A DNA stretch of 21,855 nt, from IMG/VR virus record IMGVR_UViG_3300034283_001048, positions 1-21,855 of that record. The stretch is one strand, 5' to 3'. The translations under genes and the position numbers were made by a program. Positions 13,282 to 15,227 of the stretch are shown here, in pieces. Each line of letters opens with the position of its first letter. Positions within the stretch are counted from its first letter, which is position 1. The stretch is from a virus. The notes beneath the pieces are model-generated. The model was given only the letters and a program-made list of their open reading frames with translations. It was not told where the DNA came from and did no database searches.

Positions 13282-13514
13282 GCGCGGCACCTGACTTAGG
13301 CAACCTGAGCGAGTTCATCGATCACAATTATAAGAATGTGGCATCGTATCTCATGGCTTGTGGTTTCGATTATTATGAATCGAACTATAAATATCGGAAG
13401 TTCTACAACGATTATCAGAACAATCGCTGCATCGTTATAGACCTCTACGATGATGCTGAACGCCTTAATAAGGTCGAGCTGGTACGAATGATTGATAAAG
13501 TTTATTCGCGATGA
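13278..13514 (+). CDS. Small acidic/aromatic protein, function unknown
   Basis: 78 residues with many Tyr and Asn residues (YYESNYKYRKFYNDYQNNR) and a helical, charged C-terminus (DAERLNKVELVRMIDKVYSR). It overlaps the nuclease gene and the methyltransferase gene by 4 bases each, so it is clearly part of the operon. No motif is recognised. A DNA-mimic or anti-restriction role comes to mind because of its position, but the charge is not extreme and nothing proves it. Confidence 0.55.
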   Translation: MSAAPDLGNLSEFIDHNYKNVASYLMACGFDYYESNYKYRKFYNDYQNNRCIVIDLYDDAERLNKVELVRMIDKVYSR

Positions 13515-14857
13515 CACACGGCAGCTTATTCAGCGGAATTGGCGGCTTTGATTTAGCCGCTGAGTGGATGGGGTGGGAGAACATATTCCATTGCGAGTGG
13601 AATTCATTCGGGCAAAAAGTATTAAAATATCACTTTCCAAATTCAATAAGTTATGAAGACATTACCAAAACAGATTTCACTATTCACCGAGGACGAATTG
13701 ACATCCTCACAGGAGGATTCCCCTGCCAGCCCTACTCAATGGCCGGAAAGCGACTTGGAAAAGAAGATGAGCGACACCTCTGGCCGGAGATGCTTAGAGC
13801 GATTCGAGAAATTCAGCCGCGTTGGGTTGTGGGCGAAAACGTTCTCGGCCTTGTTAATTGGTCAGGAGGGTTGGTCTTCCACGAGGTGCAGGCTGATTTG
13901 GAAGCTGAAGGGTACGAAGTACAACCGTATGTACTTCCAGCTTGTGCCGTCAACGCACCGCACCGAAGAGACAGAGTTTGGTTTGTTGCTAAAAACACCA
14001 AGTGCGATGGATTCGTATTCGGAGAACCTAACCAAGAAGGAGCAGAAATTCGGGAATTCGGGAACGCTTGCACAGGAAGTTCAGTCGGGATTCATTTATC
14101 AGAGAGGTCTGCTTCCAACCCCACAGGCAATGGATATGATGCAAAACCCACCCCGGCAAATAACTCAATCGGGCAGAATAATAAGCAATCAAGGACACAA
14201 CGGAAGCGCACCATTGAAGGACTTAGCGATGAACGGCCTACTCCCCACCCCAACGGCAATGGACTCAACGAACGCAACGGCAACGATGAAGAGCAGCCAG
14301 GTGAAGGAGGGCTCGATGCACAGTGTAATCCTTTGCCGAGCAATGGCAATGGGGATGTTGCCGACACCGCAAGCCAGAGACGAGAAGAACGGGAGCAAAT
14401 TGAAGGACGGCAGAACACAACGGAAAATAGAACAAAAATGGACTTTTGGTCTGAACGATTTTGCGAGCATGGGGATGTTGCCGACACCAAACACAAGGGA
14501 TTGGAAGGACAATGTAGGAAACGGAAAAGATGCTCCGAGCATAGGAGTAACGAGGGGATATTCATTGGGTCAGAAAGTAAATTCAATGCTACCGACACCA
14601 ATGGCATCCGATTGCGGAGAGAAAGTAACGGGATTGGAAAATCAAGATTCACTAACGAAGCGGGCGAGATTGGAAACTGGCACAACTTCCCAACTCAATC
14701 CCCGGTTTGTACTGGAAATGATGGGCTTTCCTCCAGACTGGACTCTATTACCTTTTCTAAGTGGCGAAACGAATCCATCAAAGCCGGAGGAAACGCCATA
14801 GTGCCTCAAGTGGTTTACCAAATTTTTAAAGCAATTGAGCAGTATGAGAAAGGCTAA
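13511..14857 (+). CDS. C5 cytosine DNA methyltransferase (Dcm-type)
   Basis: 448 residues. It would transfer a methyl group from SAM to C5 of cytosine, probably to guard phage DNA from host restriction. Motif I is GSLFSGIGGFDLAAEW (4-19), motif IV is GGFPCQPYS with catalytic C72, motif VI is ENV (109-111), and motif VIII is HRRDRVWFVA (151-160). Motif X, GNAIVPQVVYQIF, is at 427-439. Between about 165 and 415 the protein is hydrophilic and repeat-like (NPTGNGYD, HPNGNGLNE, NGNGDVADT, GDVADTKHKG), where the target-recognition domain should be. That stretch also carries a long open frame in the +3 register (13653-14801), see that entry. A typical motif IX is not obvious in this frame. No cognate restriction enzyme is recognised beside it. 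The recognition site cannot be deduced. Confidence 0.92.
   Translation: MTHGSLFSGIGGFDLAAEWMGWENIFHCEWNSFGQKVLKYHFPNSISYEDITKTDFTIHRGRIDILTGGFPCQPYSMAGKRLGKEDERHLWPEMLRAIREIQPRWVVGENVLGLVNWSGGLVFHEVQADLEAEGYEVQPYVLPACAVNAPHRRDRVWFVAKNTKCDGFVFGEPNQEGAEIREFGNACTGSSVGIHLSERSASNPTGNGYDAKPTPANNSIGQNNKQSRTQRKRTIEGLSDERPTPHPNGNGLNERNGNDEEQPGEGGLDAQCNPLPSNGNGDVADTASQRREEREQIEGRQNTTENRTKMDFWSERFCEHGDVADTKHKGLEGQCRKRKRCSEHRSNEGIFIGSESKFNATDTNGIRLRRESNGIGKSRFTNEAGEIGNWHNFPTQSPVCTGNDGLSSRLDSITFSKWRNESIKAGGNAIVPQVVYQIFKAIEQYEKG
13653..14801 (+). CDS. Out-of-frame protein nested inside the methyltransferase gene (LPTP-repeat protein)
   Basis: A 382-codon frame from ATG 13653 to TAG 14799-14801 lies wholly within the methyltransferase gene, one base ahead of its frame. 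It has protein-like features that a shadow frame would not be expected to show: a segment GLWAKTFSALLIGQEGW (58-74), then WKLKGTKYNRMYFQLVPS (83-100), five LPTP repeats (154, 197, 236, 276, 313), usually followed by xAxD, plus a KTPSAMD variant at 114-120, and SQLNPRFVLEMMGFPPDW (346-363). I recall similar proteins in other Bacteroidota phage genomes and metagenomes, which suggests conservation, but I cannot check. The last segment resembles motif IX of C5 methyltransferases, so it may supply DNA-recognition function. No Shine-Dalgarno is present. The region is also stop-poor on the minus strand, so composition contributes. Whether it is translated is unproven. Confidence 0.6.
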   Translation: MKTLPKQISLFTEDELTSSQEDSPASPTQWPESDLEKKMSDTSGRRCLERFEKFSRVGLWAKTFSALLIGQEGWSSTRCRLIWKLKGTKYNRMYFQLVPSTHRTEETEFGLLLKTPSAMDSYSENLTKKEQKFGNSGTLAQEVQSGFIYQRGLLPTPQAMDMMQNPPRQITQSGRIISNQGHNGSAPLKDLAMNGLLPTPTAMDSTNATATMKSSQVKEGSMHSVILCRAMAMGMLPTPQARDEKNGSKLKDGRTQRKIEQKWTFGLNDFASMGMLPTPNTRDWKDNVGNGKDAPSIGVTRGYSLGQKVNSMLPTPMASDCGEKVTGLENQDSLTKRARLETGTTSQLNPRFVLEMMGFPPDWTLLPFLSGETNPSKPEETP

Positions 14858-15227
14858 AGAATCAGATATCTACTTTGCAATCGCGAAGTTTATGAAGCTA
14901 AAGCATCCGAGAGTACTATGGCGCTTCGACTTCAGCGCTGGCGTGAAGATGAGCATCGGGCAGGCGAAATCGCACAAGGGATTGAACCCTCATAGGGGCT
15001 ACCCTGACCTCTTCATCTGCCAGCCATCGAACGGTTATGCAGGGCTATACATCGAAATCAAAAAGGAGGGCGAACGAACGCAGCGCAAGGATGGCACGCT
15101 CTACGCCGATCAGCACCTTGAAGAGCAACACGCAATGCTGAACCACCTTAACATGGTAGGCTATAAAGCGGTATTCGGTATTGGGTTAATGGAGTGCATT
15201 GAAATAATTGAAGAGTATTTAAGATAA
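14844..15227 (+). CDS. VRR-NUC domain nuclease
   Basis: 127 residues from the ATG at 14844, overlapping the methyltransferase by 14 bases; an in-frame TTG at 14835 is less likely. VRR-NUC proteins are PD-(D/E)XK nucleases that cut branched or structured DNA. Core residues are visible: RGYPDLFI with D55, GLYIEIKKEG with E71 and K73, a later Gln (Q95), and the closing helix GYKAVFGIG. A stand-alone domain of about 100-130 residues is usual in phages. It probably resolves replication or recombination intermediates before packaging. Overlap with the methyltransferase suggests shared expression, though a restriction role is not supported. Confidence 0.87.
   Translation: MRKAKESDIYFAIAKFMKLKHPRVLWRFDFSAGVKMSIGQAKSHKGLNPHRGYPDLFICQPSNGYAGLYIEIKKEGERTQRKDGTLYADQHLEEQHAMLNHLNMVGYKAVFGIGLMECIEIIEEYLR

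Follow-up and report, generated by a model that had tools for sequence, protein, structure and literature searches.

Multispecific C5 methyltransferases of the Bacillus phages phi3T, SPR and rho11 carry several recognition units in series, in one chain and in one frame. Other enzymes of this type are divided, and Lee et al., in 1995, are said to have located the small gene of M.EcoHK31I inside the large one, in another frame. M.EcoHK31I (YGGCCR) is a two-polypeptide C5 methyltransferase with motifs I-VIII and X in the larger chain and only motif IX in the smaller, and its recognition domain has been placed in the larger chain (PMC3404938). M.AquI (CYCGRG) is also a split C5 methyltransferase, and its second polypeptide contains the recognition-region sequence together with motif IX (PMC3404938).

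In the 21.9 kb viral record analyzed here (the whole of it is referred to as the window), a C5 DNA methyltransferase gene, alpha, contains a complete second open reading frame, beta, on the same strand. The two probably make up one C5 methyltransferase of two subunits, in which the part for target recognition and motif IX is read from a second frame of the enzyme's own gene, a reading to which a probability of about 0.84 is given. Compared with earlier records, the new element would be the role proposed for the nested protein from its sequence; the nested frame itself was already annotated, its copies appearing as “g50 internal gene” (Redbud) and “Mte8-like” (K1G). No paper in the literature collection searched describes or explains the phage nested pair, and absence there is not proof.

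Beta is a conserved gene nested in the methyltransferase gene

Alpha (13511..14857, plus strand, 448 aa) was assigned as a C5 DNA methyltransferase chain by PF00145 (E 2e-43), phrog_363 (E 3e-68) and TIGR00675. All of the motifs claimed for it in the preliminary description were present on the plus strand: motif I (LFSGIGGFDLA, 13526..13558), motif IV with the catalytic PCQ (GGFPCQPYS, 13712..13738), motif VI (GENVLGL, 13832..13852), motif VIII (HRRDRVWF, 13961..13984) and motif X (GNAIVPQ, 14789..14809), the last extending beyond the end of beta. The SAM motif I, the catalytic PCQ, ENV, motif VIII and motif X of PF00145 were thus found in this chain. Motif IX was absent when the motifs of the alpha chain of the window were read. 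Alpha therefore does not hold motif IX and a recognition domain in one chain, and its dN/dS was 1.7–1.9 from motif VIII to the motif-IX region.

Beta (13653..14801, plus strand) opens with an ATG 142 bases into alpha and continues for 382 codons in the +1 register, giving an overlap of 1.1 kb that lies fully within the 448 codons of alpha. A profile search placed it by score in phrog_1008 (E 8.7e-34). So long a frame had been described as very rare by chance, and this proved correct: the chance of 382 open codons was 1e-9 in random sequence of the same base composition. A stricter test was carried out by permuting the synonymous codons of alpha, and the beta span was free of stops in one of 20,000 permutations (p = 5e-5), when 7.2 ± 1.8 stops were expected. 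The remaining forward frame (+2) of alpha was unremarkable under codon permutation (longest run 35 codons, p = 0.93), and in five further long genes in the window the longest +1/+2 runs were of 33–98 codons.

Relatives of beta were detected in 259 viral contigs in a single scan, at 95 genome places, mostly of Bacteroidota, and in 70 phage records. More distant relatives were found in phages of Lacticaseibacillus, Paenibacillus, Escherichia, Salmonella, Klebsiella and Edwardsiella. The offset of beta to alpha was +1 in all of the first 83 loci (83/83). When relatives were collected via the N-terminal part of alpha alone, as an unbiased sample (n = 81), the +1 frame was open for at least 100 codons in 78, and stops in methyltransferase homologues therefore do not occur at the expected rate. 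The +1 run exceeded codon permutation (p < 0.05) in 98% of 98 non-redundant nested loci, and the +2 frame in 3%; long +1 runs also arise by chance in GC-rich relatives. The expected conservation in other phages was thus confirmed, whereas the pair had wrongly been considered rare, since it is common and in part already annotated. A plasmid search for the Enterobacterial restriction-linked pair detected nested pairs in phage-like plasmids only.

Some individual copies deviate from this pattern. A stop within beta, with alpha open, was observed in L037/L170, L049 and L185, which are decaying copies or assembly errors. The contig of one further relative (L154) was assigned to a Nitrososphaeraceae archaeon by binning and is probably a mis-binned phage.

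Selection was analyzed for each frame by simple pairwise counts of dN/dS, with changes scored by their effect in both frames, and beta showed values of about 0.15–0.4 over most of the overlap, to be read against a non-overlapping control of 0.65–0.89, not 1. Constraint was weak in beta residues 1–57 (0.27–0.68). In residues 58–105, within the conserved N-terminal part of beta, the values were 0.31–0.33 for beta and about 0.20 for alpha, and the catalytic half is therefore common to two constrained proteins. In the LPTP array the values were 0.18–0.20 for beta and 1.7–1.9 for alpha, so that the array belongs to beta, and alpha is there a passenger that only avoids stops. Around motif IX, where the values were 0.15–0.24 for beta and 0.28–0.45 for alpha, the region is therefore once again shared by both frames. 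The third-position diversity of alpha, 0.43 upstream of the overlap, was 0.19–0.32 within it from codon 91 and was not lowered at codons 61–90. The extra synonymous-site constraint looked for in the overlap is thus present. The preliminary description had also proposed a methyltransferase constraint on the N-terminal part of beta and a more protein-like second frame in the middle of alpha, and both statements held when tested. Beta is therefore a real, conserved protein-coding gene, as had been claimed.

In 60 of 65 non-redundant relatives, an ATG occupies the position of the beta start codon (TTATGAAG, 13653..13655, plus strand) or of the codon after it. The deciding third base was T in 23/27 and 37/38 cases, versus 40% at comparable positions elsewhere, and single other sites are T-rich too. 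No Shine-Dalgarno sequence was seen before the ATG in the window. A conserved hairpin follows (STRCRLIWKLKGTKYNRMYFQLVPS, 13878..13952, plus strand; pLDDT about 87), over the part of alpha directly upstream of motif VIII; its +1 pattern is partly dictated by conserved residues of alpha. The putative target-recognition array (13986..14690, plus strand) comprises six TP units; the first (LLKTP) begins at 13986 and the other five (LPTP) at 14109, 14238, 14355, 14475 and 14586. The peptides quoted for the nested frame were all found, as were five LPTP units, accompanied by one LKTP unit, and SQLNPRFVLEMMGFPPDW. Motif IX of beta, LNPRFVLEMMGFPPDW, lies at 14691..14741 (plus strand), where beta reads QLNPRFVLEMMGFPPDW and the alpha frame of the same DNA reads FPTQSPVCTGNDGLSSRL, both frames being constrained. 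An AlphaFold model of beta alone reached a pLDDT of 55 and was confident only in the hairpin and the motif-IX helix, which would be compatible with a chain requiring a partner. Searching the PDB sequences with a profile of beta gave no matches.

One-chain relatives and the location of motif IX

In gp69 of mycobacteriophage Ramsey, LPTP units and motif IX are found between motifs VIII and X in a single chain. Compared by profile with one-chain enzymes of this type from actinophages, beta aligned from LPTP to motif IX (98.9% probability, E 1.8e-17), and phrog_1008 matched both the nested betas and residues 177–361 of a one-chain enzyme. Judged by these sequence comparisons, the LPTP and motif-IX part of beta is homologous to the one-chain segment between motifs VIII and X. 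Because this segment holds recognition and motif IX in the one-chain enzymes, beta most likely represents the piece of the enzyme that alpha lacks. An AlphaFold model of a one-chain relative matched M.HhaI and M.HaeIII.

Some genes carry in the frame of alpha LPTP units that are 59–90% identical to units in the +1 frame of other genes, in one case across phyla. One unit in the frame of alpha shared 90% identity over 31 aa with a unit in the +1 frame of another enzyme. The LPTP peptide is kept in two frames relative to the catalytic domain and has therefore been selected as a peptide. The array is, from the comparison of its units, modular and reshuffled: 57 unit families occurred in 78 arrangements in 87 non-redundant betas, the largest family being over-split by the pattern.

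The location of motif IX was determined by pattern in 140 non-redundant loci. Alpha carried it in 17 and the +1 frame in 102, no locus had it in both or in the +2 frame, and 21 were left unassigned; on reading these 21, six more had motif IX in the +1 frame and about three in alpha, the rest being mostly truncated contigs. In the redundant locus set, raw pattern matches occurred in both frames at two loci.

Four architectures were distinguished. The enzyme is one chain in mycobacteriophages, and on an Embleya plasmid (L411) it is split in tandem, with a catalytic ORF at 777–1586 and an LPTP unit with motifs IX and X in an ORF at 1552–1995. In actinophages the array is nested and motif IX remains in alpha, while in this window and the majority of the others both the array and motif IX are nested. 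Motif IX was found in the frame of alpha, with the array in the +1 frame, at L297, L292, L319 and L323. In an unrooted tree of the catalytic part of alpha, a long, fully supported branch parts an actinophage clade, holding all of the one-chain LPTP forms, from nearly all of the nested forms, and the location of motif IX needs two changes on it. Additionally, four actinophage genes (L281, L290, L271 and L278) have LPTP units upstream in the +1 frame and downstream in the frame of alpha.

A separate observation concerns the active site of alpha. In 10 viral contigs (L413–L422), the exact hexamer TAACTA separates the P codon of the catalytic PCQ from its C codon and introduces an in-frame stop; L034 and L420 are the same contig, as are L080 and L417. 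TAA was an ordinary stop elsewhere in 6/6 checked contigs of this set, and no suppressor tRNA was found for them. Past the hexamer, alpha was open for 239–352 codons through motif X in the contigs holding it whole, with a dN/dS of 0.36 versus 0.34 in relatives without the hexamer. The stop could be read through or recoded, alpha could be made in two pieces, or a loss of activity could have been selected. Moreover, the ORF downstream of the pair in the window (14835–15227) resembles a VRR-NUC nuclease, under the curated cut-off, and a VRR-NUC gene is likewise found close to the pair of Bacteroides phage BS-TP4.

A putative two-subunit enzyme and its alternatives

In the proposed enzyme, alpha would be the catalytic chain, with the SAM site, the PCQ nucleophile and motifs VI, VIII and X. 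Beta, translated from its own ATG, would supply the N-terminal hairpin segment, the LPTP array in the place of the recognition domain, and motif IX. The binding of alpha to beta would then give the active enzyme, with each LPTP unit probably acting as a recognition module, and by analogy every unit may have a target of its own. Methylation by this enzyme would shield the phage DNA from host restriction.

That the open +1 frame is an untranslated by-product of the codon and amino-acid usage of alpha is extremely improbable. The N-terminal pattern of beta does follow the conserved residues of alpha in part, and chance runs do occur in the GC-rich relatives, but neither would account for the permutation result in the window, nor for significance in nearly all nested loci versus very few for +2. 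Furthermore, beta is constrained in the array and alpha is not, and LPTP and motif IX are found in the frame of alpha in other enzymes. A chance open frame was rejected on permutation, on retention in relatives and on per-frame dN/dS.

There are two other alternatives. Programmed frameshifting, into +1 downstream of motif VIII and out of it again upstream of motif X, would produce a single long chain with LPTP and motif IX; two of the actinophage genes with LPTP units in both frames (L281 and L290) would suit it, as would the four loci in which motif IX is in the frame of alpha and the array in +1. It would nevertheless require two shifts per molecule and leave aside the conserved N-terminal region and the kept ATG that beta has of its own, and it is considered unlikely. 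It is also quite improbable that beta is a separate protein merely descended from a methyltransferase segment and performing another task, such as inhibiting host restriction or serving as a decoy. A host-interaction protein would be expected to vary strongly, as the array does, but motif IX, which alpha lacks, is strongly conserved in beta, and the two never carry it together in the non-redundant set.

The two-subunit enzyme may, with even odds, represent a widespread class of phage methyltransferases in which specificity resides in a shuffled array of recognition cassettes that is encoded in a nested frame and serves a fixed catalytic chain in trans. Specificity would then evolve fast in one frame, with the catalytic frame as a stop-free passenger there, and the overprinting would have run in opposite directions in the two halves, with beta laid over alpha in the catalytic one and alpha over beta in the array. 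A long, full same-strand overlap in which selection is visible for each frame and one-chain relatives allow the function to be deduced is unusual among overlapping genes. Since gene callers retain one frame, the recognition half of a large phage methyltransferase family frequently goes without annotation or is entered as a second “DNA methyltransferase”, which constitutes a systematic blind spot. The pair allows a direct test of whether alpha-beta methyltransferases whose recognition modules can be swapped exist in nature.

Comparison with known systems

By score beta is a member of the PHROG family phrog_1008, whose label (DNA methyltransferase) is silent on nesting. The one-chain LPTP methyltransferases, Ramsey gp69 and its relatives, share with the pair the LPTP units and motif IX, placed between motifs VIII and X, with the difference that everything is in one frame and one chain. 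The array of beta also resembles the serial recognition domains of the multispecific phage methyltransferases, a likeness in layout. M.AquI differs in that its second chain also has motif X, whereas here motif X stays in alpha and beta is nested; a tandem split like that of M.AquI does occur in this same family, on the Embleya plasmid. As in M.EcoHK31I, compared by motif layout from its description, motif IX is in the smaller polypeptide and motifs I-VIII and X are in the larger. By contrast with that enzyme, the recognition-like array is here in the nested beta, a longer chain of 382 aa with a modular build.
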